Shown: piece by piece, positions 744 to 30,766 of the stretch
How the letters are laid out: every line of letters begins with the position of its first letter
Numbering within the stretch: position 1 is the stretch's first letter
Source of the DNA: Anaerolineae bacterium
GTDB taxonomy: Bacteria > Chloroflexota > Anaerolineae > DTLA01
Direction of reading: 5' to 3'
Length of the DNA: 32,196 nt
NCBI GenBank assembly: GCA_029907165.1
Contig: JARYMK010000012.1
Location: forward strand, 1-32,196
Notes under the pieces: generated by a model
What the model saw: only the letters and a program-made list of their open reading frames with translations
The model's database searches: none
Told to the model about the DNA's origin: nothing
Position numbers and translations under genes: made by a program

Positions 744-800
744 GTCAGAAGTCCCTCCGCGGGAACACCCTCTGCGAGAACGCGGTTGGCGGGAGTGCGC

Positions 801-3800
801 ATGCCAGGGCTTGGTCTGGTCAAGAAGACGAAAATCCTCATCCCACGGCGACGACCGGACTTTCTGCGCCGCCAGCGCCTCATAGACTTCCTGCATTCCC
901 GCATAGACCGGCGGCTGCTCCTGGTCTCCGCGCCCGCAGGCTACGGCAAGACGACCCTGCTGGTGGACTTCGCCAATGACACCGACCTCCCCGTGTGCTG
1001 GTACTCGCTGGACAGCGGCGCGCAGGACCCCCGCACGTTCCTGGAACATTTCATCGCCTGCATCCAGCGGCGTTTCCCCGAGTTCGGCTCGCGCACCGTG
1101 GAGACGCTGGACAGCCTGACCGACATGACCGAGACGGGGCTGAACCCCGTGCTGGTGAGCCTGGTCAACGAGATTCTGGACGAAATCCCGGAATACTTCG
1201 CCATTGTCCTGGACGACTTCCACCTGGTGGAGCAGAATACGGCCATCACGCGGTTCATCACGCGCTTCCTGGAGGACGCGCCCGAGAACTGTTGCCTCAT
1301 CGTGGCAGGGCGCACCGTGCCCGGTCGGCTCCCCATCGTAACCCTCGCCAGCAAGCAGCAGGTGGCAGGTCTGGGGAGCAACGACCTGCGGTTCACGCCC
1401 GACGAAATCCAGGCGCTGGTTCGCCAGGTGTACGACGTGGAACTGAGCGCCGAGGATGCCCGCGCCCTGGCCCAGGATACCGAAGGCTGGATCACCGGCA
1501 TCCTCCTGTCCACCCACAGCCTCTGGCAGGGCCTGCTGGAGGGCCTCATCCGCGGCAGAGGCACCATGACGGTGTACGACTACCTCGCCAACGAGGTGTT
1601 CAACCAGCAGGACTCGAAAGTCCAGGAGTTTCTGCTGGGCACATCTATCCTGGATGACATGACGCCCGAGTTGTGCGACGCCGTCCTGGAGACGAACAAC
1701 TCCTGGGCCATGTTGAACCTGCTGGAAGAGCGCAACCTGTTCCTGAATCGGCTGGGGGCAGAGGGGCAATGGTACCGGTACCATCGGCTGTTCCAGGGGT
1801 ACCTGGTGTCGCGGCTGCAGCGGGAGGAGCCGGGCCGATTCGCGGAACTGCATCGGCGGGCCGCGGCCTACTGGGAGGGCAAGAATGACCTGCCGCAAAC
1901 CATCTCGCACCTCCTGTCGGCGGGCGACTACGCAGCCGCAGCCGATCGTATGGAACGCGTCGCCAGCGCCATGATCGCCTCCGGGCGGCACATGGGGCTC
2001 ATGCAGTGGTACGAGACGCTGCCCGCCGATGTCTCGCGGCAGCATCCCTGGCTCCTGGTGCACTGCGCGAAGGCCTACGCGCAGTACGCCCAGCCCGACA
2101 TGGCGCTCTCCCTGTTGGATACGGCGGAGAATGCCTTTCGGCAGTCGGTGGACGCCAAAGGCACCGTGCAGGTCTCCGTGCAGCGGGGGACCATCTTCCG
2201 GCTCCAGGGGCGGTACAAAGAGGGCGCGGAGCAGTGCGCGCGCGCGGCGATGCTGGCCTCGCAGGTGGACGCGCCCACCGTGGCCGAACTGGAACGGTGC
2301 TGGGGCATCTGCCTGGGCCAGTTGGGGCGCTTGCAGGAAGGGGTGGAGCACCTGGAGCGGGCGCTGCAACTGCACCTCCTGTCGGGCAGCGAGTTCAACG
2401 CCGCCCTGGCGCGCACCGGGTTGGGAGCTTTCTTGGAACGCATGGGACACCTGGAGGAGGCACTCGCGCACTTTGAGAAAGCTGTACAAGCCTTCGGCCG
2501 TTTCCGAAATCCGAGCGAGCTGGCGAACGCGCTCAATTCCGTCGGCGTCATCTACTCCTACCGCGGCGAGTACGCCCGCGCGCGGGAGACCCTGCAACAC
2601 GCGCTGCAGGCGGCCCACGACGCCGGAAGCGGACGTTGGACAGCGTACATCCTGGCCGGCCTGGGCGACATAGAGCGCGACAGCGGCAACGCGGCCCAGG
2701 CGTTGGATCACTATGAGAAAGCGCTGGCCCTGCTGGACGAAACGCAGGAAGGCTTCCTCACTATGTACATCCATGCGGCCCAGGCCGAACTGCACGCCGC
2801 CCTGGGCGAGCCGCTGCGCGCGCAGGACCTGGCCCGCCAGGCGCGCGAACTGGCCGAGGCGCACCGCTCATCCTACGAGCAGGGCCTGGCAGGCATCGCC
2901 ACCGGCCTGGCCTGGCTTCCACGGGACGCGGCCCAGGCGGTGCAGGAACTGCAGAGGGCCGTGGACTTGCTAAAGGAAAATGGCGCCATGCGCGACATGA
3001 CGCGGGCGGTGTTCCTGCTGGCCGCGGCGCTGGAGCAGGCGGGCGCTCACGAGAAAGCCCTGACCCGCCTGGAAGAGGCCCTGACCCTGGCAAGCAAACT
3101 GGGCTACCGGATGGCCCTGCGCGCGCTGGCGGGCTGGGCCAAGCCCCTGCTGGCCCGCGCGGCCCAAAGCGGCATGGACGTGGCCGACATCCTGCAGGAG
3201 GCGGCGCCCCCCGCCCCCGCGATCGCCGCCGAGGCGCCTGCGCCCGCAGAGACCCACACCATCCGCCTGCTGGGGCTGGGCGGGAGCCGCGTGGAAATGG
3301 ACGGCGAGGCCGTGCTCACTAAGTGGAGCAAGGCGCGGGAGTTGATCTTCCTCCTGGCGACGCAGAACGAAGGGCGCGGCGTGCTCCGCGACGACATCTA
3401 TCAGGCGCTCTGGCCCGGCGACTCTGAGCACAAATCCTACGGCAATCTCCACACGCTCATCTATCGGGTGCGCCGGTTCCTGACCAACGACTGCATACAG
3501 TACGAGGACAACGTGTACCGCTTCGCGCCGGCGGGAGGCTACACCTGCGACGTAACCGAGTTCCAGACGCTCATCGCCAAGGCCCGGGCCGCCCAAGACC
3601 CCGCCGAGGCCCTGACCTGGTACGAAAAGGCCGTAGCACTCTACAGGGGCGATTTTCTGGAAGACATCGCTGCCGAGTGGACGATACACCTGCAGACGGC
3701 ATTGCGAGACATGTTCCTGATGGCGATTGCGCGAGTGGCCAACCACTACTGGCAGGTGGGCAACTGCGAGATGGCCGTTGCACTGGCGCATCGTTGGCTA

Positions 3801-3986
3801 GAGGAAGACCGCACCGACGAAGCGGCGCATCGCCTGCTGATGCGGTGCTTCGCGGCCCAGGGCAACATCGGCGCGGTGCGGCGCCAGTTCCAGTTGTGCG
3901 AACGCATCCTGACCCAGGAACTCCAGGTAGAGCCCGACGAGGAGACGCGCGAACTGTACGTTCGCCTGACCGCGCAAGGCGAGTGA
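801..3986 (+). CDS. MalT-like ATPase/TPR transcriptional regulator with C-terminal winged helix and BTAD domain
   Basis: About 1061 residues. A STAND-type NTPase opens the protein, with Walker A APAGYGKTT (about residues 44-52) and Walker B-like IVLDDFHLVE (about 135). A long helical region of TPR-like repeats covers about 390-790 (for example EALAHFEKAVQAFG and QALDHYEKALALLDE). An OmpR-type winged helix (about 818-905) and a bacterial transcriptional activator domain (about 915-1060) follow. In related regulators, ligand and ATP binding relieve autoinhibition and the winged helix binds direct repeats. I place the start at ATG 801, five bases after GGGAG, rather than at the TTG 15 bases upstream. 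Three phased repeats just downstream (4163-4191) are plausible targets, which would make the twin peptides its regulon. The inducing ligand is unknown. Confidence 0.88.
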   Translation: MPGLGLVKKTKILIPRRRPDFLRRQRLIDFLHSRIDRRLLLVSAPAGYGKTTLLVDFANDTDLPVCWYSLDSGAQDPRTFLEHFIACIQRRFPEFGSRTVETLDSLTDMTETGLNPVLVSLVNEILDEIPEYFAIVLDDFHLVEQNTAITRFITRFLEDAPENCCLIVAGRTVPGRLPIVTLASKQQVAGLGSNDLRFTPDEIQALVRQVYDVELSAEDARALAQDTEGWITGILLSTHSLWQGLLEGLIRGRGTMTVYDYLANEVFNQQDSKVQEFLLGTSILDDMTPELCDAVLETNNSWAMLNLLEERNLFLNRLGAEGQWYRYHRLFQGYLVSRLQREEPGRFAELHRRAAAYWEGKNDLPQTISHLLSAGDYAAAADRMERVASAMIASGRHMGLMQWYETLPADVSRQHPWLLVHCAKAYAQYAQPDMALSLLDTAENAFRQSVDAKGTVQVSVQRGTIFRLQGRYKEGAEQCARAAMLASQVDAPTVAELERCWGICLGQLGRLQEGVEHLERALQLHLLSGSEFNAALARTGLGAFLERMGHLEEALAHFEKAVQAFGRFRNPSELANALNSVGVIYSYRGEYARARETLQHALQAAHDAGSGRWTAYILAGLGDIERDSGNAAQALDHYEKALALLDETQEGFLTMYIHAAQAELHAALGEPLRAQDLARQARELAEAHRSSYEQGLAGIATGLAWLPRDAAQAVQELQRAVDLLKENGAMRDMTRAVFLLAAALEQAGAHEKALTRLEEALTLASKLGYRMALRALAGWAKPLLARAAQSGMDVADILQEAAPPAPAIAAEAPAPAETHTIRLLGLGGSRVEMDGEAVLTKWSKARELIFLLATQNEGRGVLRDDIYQALWPGDSEHKSYGNLHTLIYRVRRFLTNDCIQYEDNVYRFAPAGGYTCDVTEFQTLIAKARAAQDPAEALTWYEKAVALYRGDFLEDIAAEWTIHLQTALRDMFLMAIARVANHYWQVGNCEMAVALAHRWLEEDRTDEAAHRLLMRCFAAQGNIGAVRRQFQLCERILTQELQVEPDEETRELYVRLTAQGE

Positions 3987-4130
3987 ATTCCCCCACCCTG
4001 TAACGCCCTGCTCTTGATACACATTGAGGCCAATCCCGCACCTGTGCATATCGTAGTGGCGTAGCATGCTGCGCCCTGCAACCCTTCTTCGCGTTGCCGT
4101 GCGCATTCTTTCCCCCATTGAACCTTGTTT

Positions 4131-4152
4131 TACGTTTAGAAACCTTAACGTA
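4131..4152. promoter_or_regulatory. Inverted repeat TACGTT-N10-AACGTA, possible operator
   Basis: Perfect 6-bp arms (4131-4136 and 4147-4152) are separated by 10 bases, in an AT-richer patch 11 bp upstream of the phased heptamers. It has operator-like geometry for a dimeric regulator, but no T-tract follows, so it is not a simple terminator. Function is inferred from position only. Confidence 0.35.
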
Positions 4153-4162
4153 TCTGCCCCAG

Positions 4163-4206
4163 AAGTGAGCCCCATGTGAGTGCCAAGTGAGTGGCCCTGT
4201 GATACA
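4163..4206 (+). promoter_or_regulatory. Three 11-bp-phased heptamers plus extended -10: candidate BTAD/SARP-type binding site and promoter
   Basis: AAGTGAG (4163-4169), ATGTGAG (4174-4180) and AAGTGAG (4185-4191) are separated by exactly 4 bases, a period of 11 bp. Nine bases after the last repeat is GATACA (4201-4206), preceded by TG at 4198-4199, a weak extended -10; there is no recognisable -35. SARP-family activators are known to bind heptameric direct repeats at 11-bp period with the last repeat about 8 bp from the -10. The gene immediately upstream encodes a regulator with that winged helix-BTAD module. Transcription would start near 4213 and the first peptide begins at 4245. Confidence 0.55.
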
Positions 4207-4244
4207 GTGGGTGCAGAAACAAGAAAGCGCAGGAGGGAGTTGCC

Positions 4245-4370
4245 ATGAAGACCCTGTTCGCCAAACTCGCTGACCCCCGGTACGCCAAGGTTGCGTGGGT
4301 TGTGCTCGGACTCATCGGACTGATCATCGCGGGCGGCGCGCCCACCGGCCCCGGCGGCCCCGGCGCCTAG
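4245..4370 (+). CDS. Small 41-residue membrane-type peptide, copy A
   Basis: The peptide starts at ATG after a strong SD (AGGAGGGAG, 4231-4239). It has a basic amphipathic head (MKTLFAKLADPRYAK), a short hydrophobic stretch (VAWVVLGLIGLIIA, residues 16-29) and a glycine/proline tail (GGAPTGPGGPGA, residues 30-41). It is too short for most gene finders, but the neighbouring copy preserves frame, SD and 38 of 41 residues, so it is a real gene. I recognise no family. A double Gly at the end of the hydrophobic segment could be a processing site, but this is speculation. Possible roles are a small inner-membrane peptide, a secreted signal or a precursor peptide. Phased repeats upstream suggest control by the BTAD regulator. 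Confidence 0.75.
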   Translation: MKTLFAKLADPRYAKVAWVVLGLIGLIIAGGAPTGPGGPGA

Positions 4371-4408
4371 TCCGACGACACGCTGAACATTGACAGGAGG
4401 AAGTCGTC

Positions 4409-4534
4409 ATGAAGAACCTGTTCACCAAACTCGCCGACCCCCGCTACGCCAAGGTTGCGTGGCTCGTTCTCGGACTCATCGGGCTCATCATCGCGGGCGG
4501 CGCGCCCACCGGCCCCGGCGGCCCCGGCGCCTAG
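4409..4534 (+). CDS. Small 41-residue membrane-type peptide, copy B
   Basis: Second copy of the peptide, with its own SD (AGGAGG at 4396-4401) and ATG at 4409, 38 bases after the stop of copy A. It differs from copy A at residues 3 (Thr to Asn), 6 (Ala to Thr) and 19 (Val to Leu), all in the head and early hydrophobic part. The tail GGAPTGPGGPGA is identical. No separate promoter is visible between the copies, so they are probably co-transcribed. The mixture of synonymous and conservative changes indicates selection for the protein. Family and function are unknown; options are as for copy A. Confidence 0.75.
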   Translation: MKNLFTKLADPRYAKVAWLVLGLIGLIIAGGAPTGPGGPGA

Positions 4535-4836
4535 TCCGACGACATCGTAGCGATTCCCAGCCGCCGCCAAGTTTCGCGCGGCGATCCTCCGGATAGGGGG
4601 CAATGGAATCTGCTTGAGGGGGCCCTTTGGAAGGTGCTAGGGAACGCCGTCCGGGCCACCTGAACGAGCGCGGTTGGTCGTCCAGAATCATCTCAGAGCA
4701 GCGATCATCGCAGGCCTCACGGGTTCGCACATCATGAGGCTATCCATACGACAATCGCACAGCGTCGCAAGCAGTTTTCCTGCGCCCCCTATCGCTGTGC
4801 ATAAAGCGGAAACGCCAATATGGTGAGGGAGAGAAA
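4535..4836 (+). other. 302-nt non-coding gap upstream of the Os1348-like gene
   Basis: No credible reading frame. The first 10 bases belong to the duplicated peptide unit. Structural elements include an 11-bp palindrome GCGATCATCGC (4701-4711) and an inverted repeat GCCTCA/TGAGGC (4714-4719 and 4735-4740, 15-nt loop). No T-tract terminator follows copy B, and no convincing -35/-10 pair was found for the downstream gene, so it may be a long structured leader shared with the peptide transcript. Confidence 0.4.
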
Positions 4837-5067
4837 ATGACCGCCGAGATTCTGAATGTGCTCGTGGGCGCAGCGGTAACCGATGGCGAATTCTGCCAGG
4901 CCCTGCTGAACAACCCGGGCCGCACGGCGCGGCAATTCGGCCTCGCGCCCGAGGATGTGGAAGTCGTGTCCAAGATTCGGGCGCGCTCGCTGGCCGAATT
5001 CGCCGGGCAGTTGCTCCATTGGATGCCCGCCGAGCCCCGCGATTCCCTGTACGCCCGAATGCAATAG
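4837..5067 (+). CDS. Os1348/NHLP-clan-like small protein (RiPP-precursor-like)
   Basis: 76 residues, ATG preceded by a purine-rich SD (GAGGGAGAG). The sequence follows the pattern of the Os1348-type NHLP clan: an acidic helix with AAVTDGEFCQALL, a short NPGRTARQFGL turn, PEDVEVVSKI, then RSLAEFAGQLLHWM. In that clan the conserved part is leader-like and some members are precursors of ribosomally made, modified peptides. Here only about 14 residues (PAEPRDSLYARMQ) follow the leader-like part and they lack Cys, Ser/Thr clusters or Gly-rich core, so it may be a stand-alone member rather than a true precursor. No modifying enzyme lies on the same strand nearby; the closest radical SAM gene is at 7850-9019 on the other strand. 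Assignment is by remembered pattern. Confidence 0.6.
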   Translation: MTAEILNVLVGAAVTDGEFCQALLNNPGRTARQFGLAPEDVEVVSKIRARSLAEFAGQLLHWMPAEPRDSLYARMQ

Positions 5068-5112
5068 CGCGTTGCTGCCTTCCCAGGCAACCCAACGCCC
5101 ACGCTGACCCAA

Positions 5113-5149
5113 CAGCCTGCCGTGGCATGTCCGCGGCAGGCTGCTTTCT
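5113..5149 (+). terminator. Intrinsic-type terminator after the Os1348-like gene
   Basis: A perfect 10-bp stem CAGCCTGCCG / CGGCAGGCTG (5113-5122 with 5134-5143) with an 11-nt loop, followed by a short pyrimidine run CTTTCT. It lies 45 bases after the stop codon and between convergent genes, so it may also serve the minus-strand gene ending at 5178. Confidence 0.7.
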
Positions 5150-5177
5150 GCGTGGCGCAGGCGCGCCGAACCCCGCT

Positions 5178-7082
5178 TCACCGCCGCGCAAGTTCGTACA
5201 CGTGCACCCGATCCTGCATGATGGGGTTCACGGCTAGATTCCCACGGATGACCCCGCTCACGGAATCCCCCAGCCACTTTGGGGCTTCCTCAATAACCGC
5301 AACCTCGCGCAGTCGGCCATCGCGCAGGATGCCCTCCTGCACGGTGGCCCAGGTCTGGCCGCGCACGTCGCCCCAGCCCGCGTCATAACTGCGCTCGCCC
5401 ACGAGAACGTGCGTGATACCCCACGACTGGAGCAGCGAAATGCAATCCGGGTCTGGTAAGCGGGCCAGCATCCCCTCATAGGCCATGTACTCCGGCGGGT
5501 AGAACGTGCCGTGGCCGTAGGCGATCCGCCGCCCGTGCAGCGCCGAGCGGTACAGCGCGTCGCCGTTCCACGCTGCCACCAGCGGAAACCGCATGAGCGC
5601 CGCGTCATCGGGCAGCGTTCGCAGGTACTCCTCCAGCGGGCCGGCTGTTGCATCTGAGAACCCGAAGGGCATCGGCACGATGAGGAACTCCACCAGCACA
5701 AGCGCGGTCAGGACGCCCGCGACGACCCTGCGCGCGACCCGCCCCCTCCGCAGCACCAACGCCAGCCCTACCCCGCCCAGCACCGCCACCCCGAACGTGG
5801 TGATGAGGCCGAAGCGGTACAGGGTCCGCATGGCGCTGCCGAACGGGAGAAACAGATAGACCAGCAGCGCCGGCAGGGGGATGGGAATTGCGCCAGGCCG
5901 ATGGAGCGAGTAGTACGACACGGGGTTGATGGCCAGACGCTCGGTGAGGAAGTACATCCCGCGGGCGAACAGGCGGTCCACGCCGTCGGGCACGGGCACG
6001 TACAGGCGCGTCCCGCCAACGTGGAGCGTCGTCCCCAGGGCCATGACGAAGGCGACGAGCGCGATGAGCGCCAGGCCCGACACAAACCGATGGCTTCGCC
6101 TCCGCCACGCCACCCACGCCAGAATCAGCGGCACGAATCCCACGAACACAACCCCGGGCGCGTACCAGGGATACGCGGGCACGTTGGCGCGATGCTCAAG
6201 GAACCATCGCCCCCACAGGGGGTGGTAGATGTTGGGGTAGAAGAAGTCCTCCAGGCTGGCGGACCACTTCTCCACATCCCCCAGGGACCAGGCCAGGCCG
6301 CTCCCGCTTCGCGCGATCTGGATCGCGGGCACTGCCGCCGGCAGCACCAGCACCGCCGTAACCGCCGCCATCAGCGCCAGATGCCCCCACACCTGGCGGC
6401 GGGCCAGGTTCACCTTCCACGGCCACAGCCGCCACAGCGCGTACACCGCTGCCGAAAGGCCCACGATGTAAGCATAGTACCACGAGGACAGGGCGTTCAG
6501 GGCCAGAAAGCATCCGGCGAGGGCCGCATCCCGCGCGCGCCGTTCCCGAAGCCACCGCTCCAGGAACAGGAACAGCAGCGGCAGCCACTGCGTGGCGATG
6601 AGCGGGAGCCAGCCCGCCGCCATCGCCCCGATGCGGTACGGCGCATACGTGAACGCCACGGCAGCGAAGACGCCGGCCGCGCGGCTACGTGTGAGATACA
6701 GGACGAAGGCATAGGCCGCTAGGCTAGTGAGAAAGAAGGTCAGCAGGACGAAGACATTGTACGCCACCGTGGGGCTGAAGACCAGTAGGAGCGGGGCCAG
6801 GAGCACCTTGTTGGCGATCATCGTTTCGGACAGCGCCAGGTTGTAGCCGAACGGGTAGAAGATGTTGGGGTTGAACAGCAGGGCCGCCTTGCCTGCCATC
6901 GCCTGGCGCAGGTACCAGATGTCGTATAGCCATGCCAGATTGTCCCAGGGCGGGCCGGGAACCGCGCGCTCCATGAGAGTGATAAGCGGATACGTCATCG
7001 CCACGGGCAGGGCAGCGAACAGGACAACCGGAAGCCCGTGCCGACGAACCGAACGCAAGAGCCGGCCCGGCCCGCGGCGCAT
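5178..7082 (-). CDS. Polytopic membrane protein, glycosyltransferase/YfhO-like
   Basis: 634 residues with roughly ten or more hydrophobic segments (for example VLFAALPVAMTYPLITL and VAYNVFVLLTFFLTSLAAYA) and a soluble C-terminal part. After the first segment comes an acidic loop with DNLAWLYDIWYLRQ, as in the first periplasmic loop of GT-C-type membrane glycosyltransferases. The family is otherwise not one I can name, and the substrate is unknown. The start is ATG at 7082, five bases after the upstream stop, with GGAG overlapping that stop. A longer frame continues to 8195 but only reads through the upstream genes. It is last in the 9019-to-5178 operon, so it likely transfers sugars or finishes the glycan or glycolipid made by its neighbours. 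Confidence 0.7.
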   Translation of the reverse strand: MRRGPGRLLRSVRRHGLPVVLFAALPVAMTYPLITLMERAVPGPPWDNLAWLYDIWYLRQAMAGKAALLFNPNIFYPFGYNLALSETMIANKVLLAPLLLVFSPTVAYNVFVLLTFFLTSLAAYAFVLYLTRSRAAGVFAAVAFTYAPYRIGAMAAGWLPLIATQWLPLLFLFLERWLRERRARDAALAGCFLALNALSSWYYAYIVGLSAAVYALWRLWPWKVNLARRQVWGHLALMAAVTAVLVLPAAVPAIQIARSGSGLAWSLGDVEKWSASLEDFFYPNIYHPLWGRWFLEHRANVPAYPWYAPGVVFVGFVPLILAWVAWRRRSHRFVSGLALIALVAFVMALGTTLHVGGTRLYVPVPDGVDRLFARGMYFLTERLAINPVSYYSLHRPGAIPIPLPALLVYLFLPFGSAMRTLYRFGLITTFGVAVLGGVGLALVLRRGRVARRVVAGVLTALVLVEFLIVPMPFGFSDATAGPLEEYLRTLPDDAALMRFPLVAAWNGDALYRSALHGRRIAYGHGTFYPPEYMAYEGMLARLPDPDCISLLQSWGITHVLVGERSYDAGWGDVRGQTWATVQEGILRDGRLREVAVIEEAPKWLGDSVSGVIRGNLAVNPIMQDRVHVYELARR

Positions 7083-7849: not shown

Positions 7850-9019
7850 CTAACTCTGCGGGCCGGATGCGTCGGCGACATGGGGCTGGCCGGCTTCCAG
7901 CGGCGAAATCCGATGGCGAACCTTGGCGGCCTTCAGGGCCAGGTACTCCTTGAACACCTGCGGCAACACCAGCGGGTTGAACAGGATGTTGACCGTCAGG
8001 AAACACTCGTACGTGCAGAAGCACTTGGTCTCGCGGATGTCTCGGCGCATCTCGTCGGCGCGCTGGCTGAACCACACTTTGCCGAAGTCGTAGTCGTAGT
8101 CGCGCACGTTGCCGATGACGCGGTCGGGCCGCACCTCGCAGGGGAGCACCTGCCCGCGGCTGAACATGGCCCCGCCCAGCGTCCCGGCGTAGCACGGAAT
8201 TTGGTAGCGGTTCTCGCGCACCGTCTTGGCGATGATGCGCGGGCGGACGATGCGCTTGGCGTTGAGCACGTCGGAGAACGGCATCTTGTAGTAGCCCGAC
8301 AGGATGCGGGCCTTGTTGTCGCGCTCCAGCGCGCGGTGCAGTTCCTCGTAGCGCGTGATGTCAAAGTCTTTGGTCATGGGGTCTCGCGGCTCGCCCCGCG
8401 TCAGCAGGGTGAACACGGTGTTGACCCCCAGTTCCTTGCCCAGGTAGTCGTACAGCGGCAGCAGGCGATCCTGGTTCAACGCCGAGACGGTGATCTGCAC
8501 GCAGACGCTGAAGTTGGGATAGTGCTTCTCCAACCGCCGCAGTTCCTTGTACGTGCGCACCGCCTTGTCAAACAGGCCGGGCGTGTTGCGGATGCGGTCG
8601 TGATCCTCGCCGATGCCGTCAATGGACACGTCAATGTGCAGGTCAATGTTGGGGTTCTGCCGCAGCATGGTCTCGGTGGTCTCCACGATGCGGCCCGTGA
8701 GACTCCCATTGGTGGGGATGCCCACGTTGGCAGCGTGGTTGTTGACCTTGAAGATGTGGACGATTTCGGCCAGGTCTTTGCGGATGAACGGCTCGCCGCC
8801 CGTGGGCGTGAAGAACAGCATGTCGCCCATGGACGCGGAGACCTTCTCAATCTCGTCTATAGTCAGTTCGTCCTTGACCCACTCCGTCCGCTGGCCGAGG
8901 AGACAATGGCTGCAGTGGGCGTTGCAGTTCTCGGTAACGAAGAAAACGAAGTACAGCGGCATTGCCCCGCGCTTGTAGAACATGCGGGGGGTGTACTTCA
9001 GATAGTTCCAGATGCTCAT
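7850..9019 (-). CDS. Radical SAM enzyme with SPASM-like C-terminal cysteines
   Basis: 389 residues. The radical SAM cluster motif CNAHCSHC has Cys32, Cys36 and Cys39 (CX3CX2C), followed by TGGEP (73-77) and the barrel strand DVSIDG. The C-terminal part carries Cys276, Cys294, Cys333, Cys335 and Cys339, in positions suiting auxiliary iron-sulfur clusters of a SPASM or twitch type. Such enzymes modify peptides, sugars or lipids. Being first in an operon with glycosyltransferases suggests a sugar, lipid or protein-anchor modification in a surface-glycan pathway. A peptide substrate encoded nearby (4245-5067) is possible but on the other strand. The SD AAAGG lies about 8 bases before ATG. Confidence 0.85.
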   Translation of the reverse strand: MSIWNYLKYTPRMFYKRGAMPLYFVFFVTENCNAHCSHCLLGQRTEWVKDELTIDEIEKVSASMGDMLFFTPTGGEPFIRKDLAEIVHIFKVNNHAANVGIPTNGSLTGRIVETTETMLRQNPNIDLHIDVSIDGIGEDHDRIRNTPGLFDKAVRTYKELRRLEKHYPNFSVCVQITVSALNQDRLLPLYDYLGKELGVNTVFTLLTRGEPRDPMTKDFDITRYEELHRALERDNKARILSGYYKMPFSDVLNAKRIVRPRIIAKTVRENRYQIPCYAGTLGGAMFSRGQVLPCEVRPDRVIGNVRDYDYDFGKVWFSQRADEMRRDIRETKCFCTYECFLTVNILFNPLVLPQVFKEYLALKAAKVRHRISPLEAGQPHVADASGPQS

Positions 9020-19800: not shown

Positions 19801-20775
19801 CGTCGCCTCGGAAGCCGAACGGGCATTGGTGATGAGATCATCTAGGTTCTTTCCGATCACCTCGTCACGCATGTAGCCGAACAGACGCTCGGCTCCGGCG
19901 TTCCACTCCACGACGCGGTGCTGGGCGTCCAGGGTTACGATGGCATCGGGCGCGGCGGCCAGCACCGCCTCCAGATACAGCCGCCGCTCGGCGATCTGCC
20001 GCTCGGCCTCTTTGCGCGCGGTAACGTCGCGGGCGATGCCCAGCACCAGCGACTGGCCATGAATCTTGACCGGATAGGTGCGAATCTCGGCGACAACTTT
20101 GGTGCCATCCTTGCGCGTGAGGATGAATTCGTCAGGGCCGGTGGGTAGCCCCAGGACGTTGCGGGCCAGCAGCCCTGCTGCCTTCGGGATTTGCGATGGC
20201 GGCAGGAGTTTCAACTTCAGGAAACTGCCGCCGATGAGTTCCTCGCGCTTGTAGCCCACCATCTCCTCGGCGGCACGGTTGCCGTCCACGAAGACGCCCT
20301 TCATGTCGCTGAGGTAGTAGGCGTCGGGCGCGTATTCAAACAGGATGCGTAGCCTCTCCTCCGATGCTTTCAGCGCCTCCTCGGCCTGCTTGCGCTCGGA
20401 GATGTCCTCCACAACGCCCTCATAGTAGAGGATTCTACCATCGTCGCCGCGAATGGCGCGGGCCGATTCGCACACGAAGACGCGGCTTCCGTCGCGGCGC
20501 ACCCAGGAGGTCTCCCAGCCAACAATGAGGCCGTCGCGCTCCATGCGCTTCTTGAATTCGGTACGGGAGTATTCGTCACCGAAACTCTCCTTGTTGAGGT
20601 TGAGCCGCATCAGTTCCTCGGGCGAGTGGTAGCCCAACATGCGGGCGAGGGCAGGGTTGGCCAACAGGACACGTCCGTCGGGCGTCGTGCGGTACACGCC
20701 CACGCGCAGGCCGTCAAACAGCGCACGGTAGTCGGCGTTGCCGTGCGGGGATGGCATGGATTTGGAACCGCTCAT
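16888..20775 (-). CDS. Hybrid sensor histidine kinase: five PAS domains, HisKA, HATPase, two receivers and HPt
   Basis: 1295 residues. Five PAS/PAC units end with DISERK-, DVTARK- or DITERK-type linkers. The kinase core has HEIRTP with the phosphorylated His near residue 661, NLVGNAIKFT (N box, N778), ADTGIGIPP (G1, D810) and GGTGLGL (G2). Receiver 1 has phospho-Asp near 952 (ITDVRMPEMDG) and receiver 2 near 1094 (LMDVEMPVMDG). The HPt domain has TGHTLKG with His near 1236. The set is complete for a phosphorelay of BarA type, but there is no transmembrane helix, so it is a cytosolic sensor. Start ATG 20775 lies 8 bases after AGGAGG; the ATG at 20781 is only two bases from it. No cognate output protein is adjacent. 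Confidence 0.95.
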   Translation of the reverse strand: MSGSKSMPSPHGNADYRALFDGLRVGVYRTTPDGRVLLANPALARMLGYHSPEELMRLNLNKESFGDEYSRTEFKKRMERDGLIVGWETSWVRRDGSRVFVCESARAIRGDDGRILYYEGVVEDISERKQAEEALKASEERLRILFEYAPDAYYLSDMKGVFVDGNRAAEEMVGYKREELIGGSFLKLKLLPPSQIPKAAGLLARNVLGLPTGPDEFILTRKDGTKVVAEIRTYPVKIHGQSLVLGIARDVTARKEAERQIAERRLYLEAVLAAAPDAIVTLDAQHRVVEWNAGAERLFGYMRDEVIGKNLDDLITNARSASEATTLTAQVMSGEPVPPTETVRYRKDGSPVDVIVAAAPVLVEGHLIGAVAVYVDITERKRAEQALRESQERLQDFLDNATDLIQMVDMQGKFLYVNRAWRKALGYSEAEVPGLTLWNIIHPDSLDHCMRMFGDMISGRCNAVNVEALFLAKDGRVVPVEGSVSCRMENGKPVSTRGIFRDITERKRAEQALRESEARYRALFDNIPIGLYRTAPDGRILDANPALLEMLGYDSLEELRKVSASDVYVDPADRTRQQEILEREGVARAFEQRMRRKDGTVIWVLDNVRVIRDAEGRALHYEGSLEDITERKRVQEELHAAKEAAEAANRAKSEFLANISHEIRTPMNGIIGMTELALDTELTPEQREYLTMARNSAESLLRILNDILDFSKIEAGKLDMESIPFSLHDCLGDTMKALAVRAHNKGLELAMDIPVHVPDALVGDPGRLRQIVANLVGNAIKFTEQGEVVLFVECAEETDDEAVLQFAVADTGIGIPPDRQQAIFEAFTQADSSTTRQYGGTGLGLTISARLVEMMGGRIWVQSEVGVGSTFFFTARFGIQKGVSVWPTAELGDIRGMPVLAVDDNETNRRILHDMLASWGLRPSLAANGRQALAMMQDAARRGTSFPLVITDVRMPEMDGFMLIEQIRADTGLANTRVIILSSAGMVGDAARCRQLGVCAYLIKPVKQSELLDAILTAMAPKEGEAKAPALITRHTLREMRKRVRVLLVEDNPVNQRLATRLLEKRGHIVTVANNGQEALAALGRDSFDIVLMDVEMPVMDGFAATAAIREREKETGRHIPIVAMTAHAMKGDRERCLEAGMDDYIPKPLQVEQLMEIIERLAGGPKEEPQEAALQQVVGAEVAFRLDSALERVGGDEDLLREIAEMFLSESQTLLAQMRQAIAQSDAALLKRTGHTLKGLARNFGADDAAQAALDVERIGDEGRLDEAPAAADRLQAEVERLSQALREYLAAKA

Positions 20776-20885
20776 TTGCATAACCTCCTGCGGGCGGTGG
20801 TGTGCGTGGCCGCCCGTGTCGGGCACAATTCTACCCATGCGCGGGCCGACAGGCAAACGGCGCGGCGCACCATGCCCGCCTGTCC

Positions 20886-20899
20886 GCCCTTATCAACGC
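20886..20899 (+). promoter_or_regulatory. 14-bp repeated motif GCCCTTATCAACGC, copy 1 (before terminase)
   Basis: It lies 71 bases before the terminase start. An exact copy is at 22527-22540, 66 bases before the adaptor start. The similar distance suggests a shared promoter or operator of the cassette. TTATCA could be a weak -10, but no consistent -35 is present at both copies. Confidence 0.5.
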
Positions 20900-20956
20900 A
20901 GCGGGAGGCGTTTAGCCTTTGGCCATGATACGCCACCTGGCCGCTTGGAGATTGCC

Positions 20957-22471
20957 ATGCCCAACCGACAGCGCCTGCGCCTGTATGCCCTGTCGCGCAT
21001 CCTGCACCGCATAGACCTGTTCAGCCGCCACATTCTGGCGCGGCCTCTGCGAGGCTACCAACTGGCCCCCGCCCGCGCCATCGTGGACAGCGTCCTGCGC
21101 CGCCGCGGGCTGACATTCGCCGTGATGATGAGCCGCCAGGCGGGCAAGAACGAACTGTCGGCTCAGGTGGAGGCGTACCTGCTGGCGCTGCATTCGCGTG
21201 TCGGAGGGACGCTGGTGAAGGCTGCGCCAACCTTCGCGCCGCAGGCTGTTGTGAGCATGGAGCGCCTCGCGGCGCTGCTGGACAACCCGCTCACCCGCGG
21301 GCGCGTCGTCCGCGAGCACGGCAATATCCTCACGCTGGGCAAGGCGCGCGCCGTGTTCCTGAGCGCCCACCCCGAGGCCAACGTCGTGGGCCAGACGGCC
21401 AGCATCCTGCTGGAGTGCGACGAGGCGCAGGATGTGGACCCCGACAAGTGGGACAAGGACTTCGCCCCCATGGGCGCGTCGGCCAACGTTACCACGGTGT
21501 TCTACGGCACGGCGTGGACGCGCCACACCCTGCTGGCGCGGGTGGTCCACGAACTGCGCGCCCAGGAGGCCCGCGACGGGATTCGCCGCGTGTTCCTGGT
21601 GCCCGCTGACGTGGTGGCCGCCGAACTCCCCGCCTACGCCGCGCACTTGGAGAAGGAGGTAGCCCGCATGGGCCGTATGCACCCGCTCATCCGCACGCAG
21701 TACTTCCTGGAGGAACTGGACGCGGGCGCGGGCATGTTCCCACCCGAGCGCCGCACGCTGATGCAGGGCAGCCACCCGCCCCACCTGTCGCCCCAGCCCG
21801 ACTGCGCCTACGCCTTCCTGCTGGATGTCGGCGGGCCTGCCCAGGCGCCATTCACCTTGCCTCTGTTCCCCGATGAAGCCCTGGGGGAATGCGCTCCTGA
21901 CCCCGATCACGATGCGACGGCCCTGACCATCGTTGCCATAGACGCCGACGATGCCGTGAGCCTGCCCGTCTACCGCGTGGTGCACCGCAGGGCGTGGGTC
22001 GGCGTGGATCACCGCACGCTGTACGGGCAGATTCGGGCGCTGGCCGAGGCGTGGAACCCCGCGGCCATTGTGGCCGACGCCACGGGCGTGGGCGCGGGGC
22101 TGACCGACCTGCTGCGGTCGGCCCTGGGCGAGCGGGTGATCCCCGTGGTGTTCAGCGCCACCAAGAAGTCCGACATCGGCTGGCGGTTCATGGCGGCGTG
22201 CGACGCGGGGCGGGTTCGGGATCATGCGGCATGTGGCGGCGAAGGGCCCTTCGCTGCTACGGAGGCGCTCCGCCGCCAGTTCTGGGAGCAGGTGGAAGCG
22301 GCGCAGGTGGAGTACCTGCCCGGCCCAGGCCAGCGCATCCGCTGGGGCGTACCCGAATCGGCGGGGCACGACGATTTGCTCGTGAGCGCCGCCCTGTGCG
22401 TGGTGCTGGATGACGGCGGGTGGGGGTGCGGCGGGAGCGTGCTGGTGCGGAATCCCGTCCGCGAGGGGTAA
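20957..22471 (+). CDS. Phage terminase large subunit-like protein
   Basis: 504 residues from ATG 20957 (TTGGAG six bases upstream). The ATPase half has a terminase-type Walker A, SRQAGKNE (59-66), Walker B plus catalytic acid LLECDEAQD (151-159) and a coupling motif FYGTAWT. The RNase H-like nuclease half has LLDVGG (D290), VADATGVGAGL (D374) and AGHDDLL (D472/D473), so all expected acidic residues are present. Large terminases pump and cut DNA into procapsids, yet no portal or capsid gene follows. Both motors look intact, so it is either recently decayed phage or a domesticated system. Base composition matches the host, favouring long residence. A longer upstream frame overlaps the kinase promoter region and is not credible. 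Confidence 0.82.
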   Translation: MPNRQRLRLYALSRILHRIDLFSRHILARPLRGYQLAPARAIVDSVLRRRGLTFAVMMSRQAGKNELSAQVEAYLLALHSRVGGTLVKAAPTFAPQAVVSMERLAALLDNPLTRGRVVREHGNILTLGKARAVFLSAHPEANVVGQTASILLECDEAQDVDPDKWDKDFAPMGASANVTTVFYGTAWTRHTLLARVVHELRAQEARDGIRRVFLVPADVVAAELPAYAAHLEKEVARMGRMHPLIRTQYFLEELDAGAGMFPPERRTLMQGSHPPHLSPQPDCAYAFLLDVGGPAQAPFTLPLFPDEALGECAPDPDHDATALTIVAIDADDAVSLPVYRVVHRRAWVGVDHRTLYGQIRALAEAWNPAAIVADATGVGAGLTDLLRSALGERVIPVVFSATKKSDIGWRFMAACDAGRVRDHAACGGEGPFAATEALRRQFWEQVEAAQVEYLPGPGQRIRWGVPESAGHDDLLVSAALCVVLDDGGWGCGGSVLVRNPVREG

Positions 22472-28150: not shown

Positions 28151-28489
28151 CTCCCCTCGCTCCTGTGAACCCTCTGCAACCACATAAGTATAGGGGAAAA
28201 CGGCCAAAGGGCAAACAGCGTCGGGTTCACCCCAGAAAACGCAGAGCGTCGCACGGGGCTGAAGCCGCCGCGACCAGGGAGTGCTACCCCCTTCGCCCGC
28301 CGAGCGGGTTCGGATGAGGGCGGATAGAAGTGCGTCGCATCTAGCACCATGGCAGCCCTACCCGCGATCGGGACACCTGCTCCTCACGCAACATTCACTA
28401 ATTCTTAATACACGATTCACCTTTTTCGCGGCCCCTCGGCCCTACAATGGAAGGTGGAAACACCAATTTGCACTCATTGGGTTGCTCTT
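28151..28489. other. 339-nt divergent region between uvrB and the secreted peptidase
   Basis: No credible gene. It holds the uvrB promoter (28187-28214), two copies of GCGTCGCA, an AT-richer patch with direct repeats ATTCAC at 28393-28398 and 28415-28420 (22 bp apart, two helical turns), and a -10-like TACAAT (28443-28448) for the peptidase. TTCACC lies 21 bp upstream, too far for a normal -35, so activator-assisted transcription is possible. Confidence 0.45.
28187..28214 (-). promoter_or_regulatory. Promoter of uvrB
   Basis: On the minus strand TTGCCC (28214-28209), 16-nt spacer, TATACT (28192-28187). It gives a leader of about 30 nt before ATG 28150. Confidence 0.6.
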
Positions 28490-30766
28490 ATGCGTACGCG
28501 TCCGTTCTCGCGGTTCCTTTGGCTGGCAACGATACCTATCCTGCTCGGGCTGGCGGCACTCGCCCTGACCGCGACCGCTGCGCGGGCCGAGGGACCTGTC
28601 GCTCCATCGCTTGCCACGCCCCAGCCCGAAACCTGGCAGGCAGGCCGAACCTCGGTGTCGGACCTGAGCCTACGAGAGCAGGCGGCGCTCCTCGGCGTTC
28701 CCGCCCAGGTGATGGAGCAGGAGCGCATCCTGAGCCTGCTCAACGCGGGACGGCGGCCCGCCGACTATCACTATCCGCCCAGCCTTGACTGGCGCCAATA
28801 CGGCGGCCAGGACTACACCACGCCCATCCGCAACCAGAGTTCGTGCGGGGCGTGCGTGGCCTTTGGCGTGGTCGGGGCCGTAGAAAGCCGCCTTGAGGTG
28901 GCCGCGAGCAATCCCAATCTGAACCCGAACCTGTCGGAGGGGCAACTGTTCTACTGCGGGTGCGGGGCGTGTTGCGAAATCGGGTGGTCGCCTGCCGCCG
29001 CACTGAACTTCGCGCGGGACGTGGGCATCGTGGATGAGACCTGCTCACCCTACAGCCCGGTCAACCAAGCGTGCAACCTGTGCCCCGATTGGCAATCTCG
29101 GGTTACGCGCATCGCGGGGTGGGCCGGCGTGAGCGGCGCGGAGAACATCAAGGAAATCCTGGCCGATAGTGGCCCGGTGGTCGCCACGATGAACGTGTAC
29201 CAGGACTTCTATTCCTACGTGGGCGGGGTGTACCGCCGCACGTGGGGCAGCCTGCTGGGCGGGCACGCGGTGGTGCTGGTCGGGTACGATGACGCCGGTG
29301 GCTACTGGTTCGCCAAGAACTCCTGGGGCACTTACTGGGGCGAGAGCGGCTGGTTCCGCATCGCCTACGGTGAGTGCGAGATAGACGACTACGCCTACGT
29401 GCCGGTGATCCTCCCGTCGGCAACGGCCACGCCGGCGCCGACGTTCACGCCTGGCCCCAGCGCCACGGCCACGCCCATGCGCACGCCCACGGCGACGTGG
29501 ACGCCCACACCGACCCACACGCCGACGGCGACGCGCACGCCAACGAGCACGCCAACTCCCACGCGCACGGCCACAGCGACGCGCACGCCAAGCGCCACGC
29601 CGACCGCTACACATACGCCCGCGCCCTTGCCGCCGCAGCACGCCGTCCGCTTCTCGGCCCGGTACGTGTCGGGCCAGTACCTGACGTACAGCGTGTACTA
29701 CGTGCTGGACGGTGGTCTTCCCAGGTTCTTGGGCACGGTCAGTTTCGCCCGCGAGTGGGAGTTCTCCGCCAACTTCAATTCCATCTGGGTCTTCATGACC
29801 ACGTCGGCGGGGACGCTCTACGCGCAGGACCTGTATGTGGACGGGGAGCGGGTCGCGTGTGGCACGCTGAGCAGCGAAGGTCTTAGGTGGCCCGGTGGGC
29901 AGTGTGAGCAGCCGCCCGCGCCTACCGCCACGCCGACGCGGACTCCGACGCTCACCTGGACGCCGACGGCCACGCCCACGCCCACGGCCACCTGGACGCC
30001 AACTGCAACCCGCACGCCAGCGCCGACCGCTACGCAGACCGGCACGCCGGCTCCGGTTCCAGGCCAGCACACCGTGCGGTTCACGGCGCGGTACGTGTCG
30101 GGGTACGCGCTGACCTACGCCGTGTACTACGCGCTGGATGGAGGGCCGACGCAGTTCCTGGGGCCGGTCGCATCGGCAGGCGACTGGACGTTCACCGCCG
30201 CATTCAACGCCATTCGGGTGTACATCAGCGTGCCCGCCGGCACGATGTACGAACAGCGCTTGTACGTGGACGGTGTTGCCGTGGACTGCGGTACCGCGGG
30301 CAGCACGGGCATGATCTGGCCGGGCGGCCGATGCGACGCACCGGAGCCACCGACAGCCACCCCGACCCGCACCGCCACGCCCACGCGCACGCCCACAGCG
30401 ACGTGGACGCCCACGCCAACCCGCACGCCCACGGCGACCCGCACGCCGACGTGGACGCCCACCGCCACGCGCACGCCTGCGCCCGTGCCGCCGCTCCATA
30501 CGGTGCGGTTCACGGCGCGGTACGTGTCGGGCTACTACGTCATGCGGAGCATCTTCTACGAGTTGGACGGCGGCGCTCCCCAATTTCTGGGCGCGGTTAC
30601 GCAGTACGCAGATTACTACCTGTCCGCGAGTTTCAACCAGATTCGCGTGTATGCCTCTAGTCCACTGGACTCGCTGTATGGGGAACTGTACGTGGATGGG
30701 GTGCGGGTAGCGTGCGGGATGATCGGGGCCGAGGGGTTGCGCTGGCCTGGCGGTTCGTGCCCGTAG
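28490..30766 (+). CDS. Secreted papain-like (C1 family) cysteine peptidase with three tandem unknown domains
   Basis: 758 residues. A signal peptide (FLWLATIPILLGLAALALTATAARA, cleaved near 33) and a short pro-like region precede a papain fold at about 93-308. The catalytic Cys is 122 in SSCGACVAF with oxyanion Gln116; His259 lies in GGHAVVLVGYD and Asn277 in AKNSWGTYWGE. Three domains of about 90 residues follow, at about 382-472, 525-615 and 668-757, each HxVRF(S/T)ARYVSG...LDGG...FN.I.V...LYVDG..V.CG...WPGG.C, joined by Thr-Pro linkers of about 50-70 residues. A conserved Cys pair per domain suggests a disulfide. It looks surface- or secretion-bound, with the repeats perhaps binding carbohydrate. 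Start ATG 28490 is preferred over GTG 28454, which would put residues before the signal peptide; no good SD precedes it. Confidence 0.88.
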   Translation: MRTRPFSRFLWLATIPILLGLAALALTATAARAEGPVAPSLATPQPETWQAGRTSVSDLSLREQAALLGVPAQVMEQERILSLLNAGRRPADYHYPPSLDWRQYGGQDYTTPIRNQSSCGACVAFGVVGAVESRLEVAASNPNLNPNLSEGQLFYCGCGACCEIGWSPAAALNFARDVGIVDETCSPYSPVNQACNLCPDWQSRVTRIAGWAGVSGAENIKEILADSGPVVATMNVYQDFYSYVGGVYRRTWGSLLGGHAVVLVGYDDAGGYWFAKNSWGTYWGESGWFRIAYGECEIDDYAYVPVILPSATATPAPTFTPGPSATATPMRTPTATWTPTPTHTPTATRTPTSTPTPTRTATATRTPSATPTATHTPAPLPPQHAVRFSARYVSGQYLTYSVYYVLDGGLPRFLGTVSFAREWEFSANFNSIWVFMTTSAGTLYAQDLYVDGERVACGTLSSEGLRWPGGQCEQPPAPTATPTRTPTLTWTPTATPTPTATWTPTATRTPAPTATQTGTPAPVPGQHTVRFTARYVSGYALTYAVYYALDGGPTQFLGPVASAGDWTFTAAFNAIRVYISVPAGTMYEQRLYVDGVAVDCGTAGSTGMIWPGGRCDAPEPPTATPTRTATPTRTPTATWTPTPTRTPTATRTPTWTPTATRTPAPVPPLHTVRFTARYVSGYYVMRSIFYELDGGAPQFLGAVTQYADYYLSASFNQIRVYASSPLDSLYGELYVDGVRVACGMIGAEGLRWPGGSCP

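Follow-up and report, generated by a model that had tools for sequence, protein, structure and literature searches.

A predicted SARP-type regulator–operator–micropeptide module with phased heptamer repeats in Chloroflexota

The window analysed here – a stretch of 32,196 nucleotides from an Anaerolineae bacterium – carries three phased heptamer repeats between the gene for a large regulator and a pair of micropeptide genes (Table 1). We read the regulator as a SARP-type activator whose N-terminal part comprises a STAND ATPase of MalT-like character and a TPR region and whose C-terminal end carries a winged helix and a BTAD domain; it would act on the phased repeats to drive a module made up of the micropeptide, in some loci a DUF5317 gene, and an Os1348-like gene. 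Taken as a whole, including the predicted binding and activation, this explanation has in our estimate close to nine chances in ten of being correct. The operator, its phasing relative to the −10 element, the co-variation of its repeats with the recognition helix, the AfsR-like fold of the DNA-binding region and the conserved gene order all emerge directly from the computation.

In the proposed mechanism, the winged helices of the regulator would bind side by side on the repeats, the last two heptamers would stand in for a −35 element, and RNA polymerase would be recruited to the −10 hexamer, as in AfsR. By analogy, we infer both the side-by-side arrangement in place of a −35 contact and the sign of the effect, activation rather than repression. 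The twin micropeptide genes – elsewhere followed by DUF5317 and Os1348 genes – would be switched on together with a few distant targets, for example a sensor kinase gene, and the regulator itself would presumably be under ATP- or ligand-gated control.

Table 1. Positions of the module features in the window and the basis of each assignment
Feature	Position	Strand	Basis
Regulator, ~1066 aa: MalT-like ATPase, TPR region, C-terminal winged helix and BTAD	786..3986	+	Pfam/NCBIfam scans
SARP-like DNA-binding and BTAD region, last 245 aa	3249..3983	+	AlphaFold2, Foldseek, profile match
Candidate operator, three heptamers, 11-bp period	4163..4191	+	Sequence; kept in both congeneric genomes
Predicted extended −10, TGA and TACAGT (4203–4208), 18 bp past the start of the last heptamer	4200..4208	+	Offset common to orthologous and paralogous promoters; 15–20 bp across the class
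Micropeptide 1, MKTLFAKLADPRYAKVAWVVLGLIGLIIAGGAPTGPGGPGA, one TM segment, GAP motif, Gly-rich tail	4245..4370	+	ORF; family across 72 loci
Micropeptide 2, MKNLFTKLADPRYAKVAWLVLGLIGLIIAGGAPTGPGGPGA, DNA 93% identical to copy 1, identical tail	4409..4534	+	Sequence
Os1348-family NHLP-clan small protein, 76 aa	4837..5067	+	NF038399, 46.1 bits (cut-off 40)

Operator, promoter and regulator in the window

The heptamers AAGTGAG (4163–4169), ATGTGAG (4174–4180) and AAGTGAG (4185–4191) follow one another in exact 11-bp steps, which confirms the three GTGAG-core 7-mers of the preliminary description; the strong SD and ATG that it placed downstream are found as AGGAGG at 4231–4236 and ATG at 4245. The triple GTGAG-N6-GTGAG-N6-GTGAG occurs once within the window, and with two mismatches allowed shuffling gives an expectation of 0.05.

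The −10 element is best read as TACAGT behind TGA, not as GATACA inside TGTGATACA, because the related promoters of the genus place TANNNT at the identical offset: in all those read, the distance from the first base of the last heptamer to the hexamer is 18 bp exactly. The hexamers at this position, from the two congeneric genomes and from the paralogous sites of all three, are TACAGT, TATAGT, TATGAT, TATCAT, TACGAT and TAGAAT. An extended −10 behind the repeats, as first described, is retained, in a register that the genus comparison has shifted to TGA-TACAGT. Counting from this hexamer, transcription is predicted to start near 4215, which would place the last two heptamers roughly from −41 to −35 and from −30 to −24. 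They would begin no more than 1 bp away from the starts of the two 11-bp repeats of the afs box, which spans −40 to −19 (−40 to −30 and −29 to −19; PMC10936776), and the third copy reaches further upstream, like the three-heptamer operator of PimR (PMC5930380). A standard sigma-70 promoter with −35 and −10 elements ahead of the peptide genes was considered and rejected, as none was found in 3950–5200.

Scans of the regulator against Pfam and NCBIfam yield the order STAND ATPase–TPR–winged helix–BTAD and bear out the earlier claim of a MalT/BTAD protein with STAND ATPase and TPR parts just upstream of the repeats. Its Walker A motif reads APAGYGKT. The MalT profile NF003420 matches residues 14–490 (E 9e-78; 262 bits, under the equivalog cut-off of 537), the BTAD domain PF03704 occupies residues 921–1060 of 1066 (E 5e-22), and no LuxR-type C-terminal HTH, the other mark of MalT, is among the Pfam matches listed for the protein. 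The regulator is 93% and 84% conserved within the genus and about 30–40% within the class.

AlphaFold2 models the C-terminal 245 residues with high confidence (pLDDT 95.5). Foldseek ranks AfsR (8hvr) first for this model, at a TM score of 0.77–0.78, followed by EmbR, and the profile match to AfsR covers the whole length of the region (E 5e-30); by profile and by fold alike, AfsR and then EmbR are its best solved full-length relatives, and the engineered TPR proteins that outscore AfsR in the profile search do so through helical repeats only. The predicted recognition helix, assigned from this fold and not from a protein–DNA complex, is EHKSYGNLHTLIYRVRRFL. The window shows two marks of SARPs, a winged helix–BTAD pair of the AfsR/EmbR fold and an 11-bp heptamer operator adjoining the −10. 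In AfsR and PimR the DNA-binding domain is N-terminal; because the BTAD domain of the window regulator is C-terminal, we speak of a SARP-type protein with altered domain order.

Repeats and recognition helices across the lineage

Within the genus, the doublet ATGTGAG-TGCC-AAGTGAG also precedes a GAF–histidine kinase–receiver gene, at the same 18-bp offset. This sensor kinase, predicted from its operator to be a second target, is common to three congeneric genomes (its domains were read in G002, the gene in G001 is homologous by eye, and the contig of G000 ends within the start of the gene). In G001 the operator and the twin peptides are kept; the regulator lies on a separate contig, followed by what looks by eye like an rRNA stretch, so that gene order cannot be judged there, and one further operator site stands ahead of a short ORF. 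G002 carries two triple operators, one before intact twins and the other before a 275-aa protein (L142, G002:C52, reverse complement 358–1186) that opens with the first 14 residues of the micropeptide (MKTLFAKLADPRYA) and has no Pfam match. Loss of the peptide in G002 was considered and is rejected, since the operator is duplicated and the intact twins follow the second copy.

Across the class, a strong regulator homologue was found in 119 of 396 genomes. About 113 loci were compared, of which 72 have a called peptide gene – 30–62 aa, with one hydrophobic segment – no more than 900 bp downstream of the regulator homologue; a few of these calls, such as that in L082, are doubtful, and some regulator homologues have no recognisable downstream peptide. 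Repeats were scored over the 150 bp leading up to the peptide start; the motif filter used for the peptides does not enter into the repeat statistic. Perfect 8-bp direct repeats at 11 or 12 bp are present in 38 of the 72 loci, against a mean of 0.4 and a maximum of 2 in shuffles. By spacing, 19 loci have them at 11 bp and 21 at 12 bp, and every other spacing from 7 to 30 bp accounts for 0–2 loci, except for the harmonic 22 bp (4 loci). The window, whose repeats score 7/8 on the 8-bp measure, lies outside the 38.

Control windows downstream of the peptide contain perfect repeats in 12 of 932 cases (~1%). When related regulators are collapsed, repeats persist in 30 of 61 clusters at 70% identity and in 16 of 30 at 50%; an independent set of named genomes, with duplicates of the first removed, has perfect repeats in 15 of 25 loci and at least 7/8 in 20 of 25. 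In 31 of the 38 loci, a −10-like TANNNT lies 15–20 bp past the point where the last repeat begins (32 hits versus 2 expected), in agreement with the 17 bp of AfsR's afs box. No repeat of at least 7/8 at 11 or 12 bp was found within the 150 bp searched in roughly one in four of the 72 loci, where some starts or peptides may be miscalled. The repeats, together with a candidate peptide, are also present in a member that has been cultured, Longilinea arvoryzae KOME-1. As a separate observation, a near-invariant 12-bp operator, TTTTGAAGCCTG, is common to family f27 (e.g. L055, L059, L065, L069, L072, L075 and L080), probably Anaerolineaceae or Anaerolineales.

These comparisons also bear on whether the heptamers might be an unrelated sequence repeat, produced by slippage or belonging to a simple repeat, without regulatory function. 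The doublet GTGAG-N6-GTGAG is indeed not rare in the genome, with 5 matches on the two strands taken together versus 5 for the reversed control; however, the repeats are confined to spacings of 11 or 12 bp, sit 15–20 bp before a −10 and differ in sequence between lineages, which makes such an origin exceedingly improbable. A chance repeat is likewise rejected by the cross-genome spacing and phasing statistics.

Operator types differ between lineages – compare the AAGTGAG type with the TTTTGAAG type – and their differences follow the recognition helix: for the most part, GTGAG accompanies F-H-S-T, GTAAGCAC accompanies S-F-H-V, and TTTTGAAGCC accompanies F-K-N-E, with further pairings besides. 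In 36 loci, three with repeats distant from the −10 having been excluded by hand, repeat similarity correlates with recognition-helix identity at 0.63. The partial correlation given BTAD identity is 0.41 (permutation p 0.0005, a test that corrects only partly for the shared ancestry of the loci), versus −0.02 for BTAD given the helix. On the tree of DNA-binding regions, the period has switched between 11 and 12 bp about five times. The comparison shows that regulator, operator and promoter evolve together, as a unit directed at the peptide gene.

The preliminary description had proposed that the regulator activates the peptide operon through the phased repeats, and had named a search of homologous loci for order and spacing as a check. 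The proposal passes this check and is supported. Relatives keep the order regulator–repeats–peptide, with repeats that drift along with the recognition helix; the period is 11 bp or, in about half of the perfect loci, 12 bp, and activation itself is predicted by analogy.

Relation to known regulators

By analogy, AfsR–afsS of Streptomyces coelicolor is a close precedent for the regulatory logic of the module; afsS adjoins afsR, and AfsS is not known to be a one-TM GAP peptide. AfsR, a SARP–NOD–TPR protein, activates the small gene afsS and shares with the window regulator the SARP-type winged helix–BTAD region, the STAND/NOD ATPase, the TPR region and the small target gene (PMC10936776). It is also alike in having two 11-bp repeats, the downstream copy of which starts 17 bp before the −10 (−29 versus the usual −12). 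The two differ in the place of the DNA-binding domain, in the MalT-like character of the window regulator's ATPase and in the 12-bp operators that are frequent in Chloroflexota loci.

PimR, of the SARP-LAL type, resembles the present system in its three heptamers with 4-bp spacers and in its large ATP-binding module (PMC5930380), yet it controls another regulator gene from an operator that stays clear of the −35 box, and its SARP domain is N-terminal. With MalT-type STAND activators the window regulator shares the N-terminal ATPase and the region that follows it, whereas it scores under the MalT cut-off and has BTAD instead of a LuxR-type HTH.

The regulator–operator–micropeptide unit, conserved in uncultured Chloroflexota, is apparently undescribed. 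The preliminary description knew of no such module; AfsR–afsS is a known analogue that gives the arrangement a precedent (PMC10936776), and the module itself was not found in the papers searched. Nothing on it came up in the Chloroflexi literature on AfsR, SARP/BTAD, DUF5317 or peptide pheromones, and neither the 12-bp operators nor the peptide family were found, in a search that left subscription journals mostly outside and is to that extent weak evidence of novelty. The module offers a lineage-wide, testable pairing of regulator, operator and target, a kind of regulation hardly described for the phylum in the literature searched. How SARPs read DNA could also be studied on this ready data set of natural operators, which change with the recognition helix and shift between 11 and 12 bp.

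Micropeptides, their neighbours and possible roles

The peptides are built alike, with M-K and a basic stretch followed by a single hydrophobic helix, by [AGS]-x-G-A-P and by a variable, Gly-rich tail of about 5–12 residues. The GAP motif is present in 53 of the 72 peptides, not an unbiased rate since the selection filter held 'xxP/GGG'. Tandem copies are frequent, and the twins of the window, 41 aa each, have tails that are identical even at the synonymous sites of the last codons. A known family for the peptides was looked for in Pfam and NCBIfam, which gave no convincing match; the module exposes a micropeptide family of its own, tied to DUF5317 and Os1348-like proteins.

A gene for an Os1348-like small protein stands downstream, in the same orientation, in 81 loci, and DUF5317 genes are present in 52. 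The window protein scores above the curated NF038399 cut-off for its family. In up to 17 loci (L013, L017, L064, L081 and others), the Os1348-like gene is itself followed by a response-regulator-like one.

The peptide would most simply be a membrane-inserted or Sec-exported product, with the G-A-P motif and the Gly-rich tail facing outward. Three proposals for what it might do are compatible with the operator explanation. It may work in the membrane as a microprotein with a partner to act on, for example DUF5317 or a sensor kinase, in the manner of an AfsS-like effector – a possible role, which we hold tentatively. In 48 of the 72 loci the peptide gene has a DUF5317 gene behind it, with gaps down to ~10 bp, and the sensor kinase appears co-regulated in the genus; however, no DUF5317 gene was recognised beside the window peptides, and the partners vary.

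The peptide could instead be an exported autoinducer, released by Sec, cleaved near [AGS]-x-G/AP and sensed through its Gly-rich tail by the TPR region of the regulator, directly or after re-import; the outcome would be a positive-feedback loop between cells, RRNPP-like but built on a STAND–SARP activator. RRNPP systems likewise pair a TPR regulator with a small MK-TM-tail gene, although theirs has a small N-terminal HTH in place of the STAND ATPase–TPR–winged helix–BTAD order found here. The basic N-terminus, single hydrophobic segment, conserved small-x-G-A-P and variable tail suit this proposal, as do the tandem copies with identical tails and the standing of the peptide gene as an apparent direct target of the adjoining TPR-containing regulator. 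Yet the partial correlation of tail with TPR is −0.01 once other regulator regions are controlled, so direct sensing by the TPR region is unsupported; the weak tail signal sits with the ATPase region instead (0.27), GAP conservation could equally mark a membrane-topology motif, and no linked protease or importer was recognised at the loci. We consider the autoinducer role rather unlikely, and unlikely too the broader proposal of a widespread Chloroflexota circuit in which a STAND–TPR–SARP activator both amplifies and senses an exported GAP-tail peptide. Were the latter true, it would add a further mode of cell–cell communication by peptide to the known RRNPP and histidine-kinase ones.

A third proposal, distinctly unlikely in our view, makes the peptide a small antimicrobial or RiPP-like product, with the Os1348-family protein as partner or leader-like helper and the regulator as the pathway-specific activator in what would be a minimal bacteriocin cluster. 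Secondary metabolism is the usual sphere of SARP control (PMC10936776), an Os1348-like gene goes with the peptide gene in 65 of the 72 loci, and the family member from Pseudomonas sp. Os17 has been tied to antibiotic activity (PMC7726476). Against this, none of the peptides could be assigned to a bacteriocin or RiPP family, and no recurring modification enzyme or exporter was recognised, only DUF5317, Os1348 and response regulator genes having been counted. The acetyltransferase, peptidase-like and SagB-type genes that accompany Os1348 in Pseudomonas (PMC7726476) were not recognised in the window, and the regulator there is a different one.

Elsewhere in the window, a Radical SAM/SPASM protein (7850–9019, minus strand) with weak likeness to several peptide and heme maturases lies near the small-protein genes; it was not found to belong to the conserved module. 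The ORF at 20738–22468 contains Terminase_6C, an RNaseH-like domain of phage terminases, which suggests that this part of the window is what remains of a prophage or is otherwise derived from a phage, and that at 28454–30766 (770 aa) has a papain-family cysteine protease domain (PF00112).
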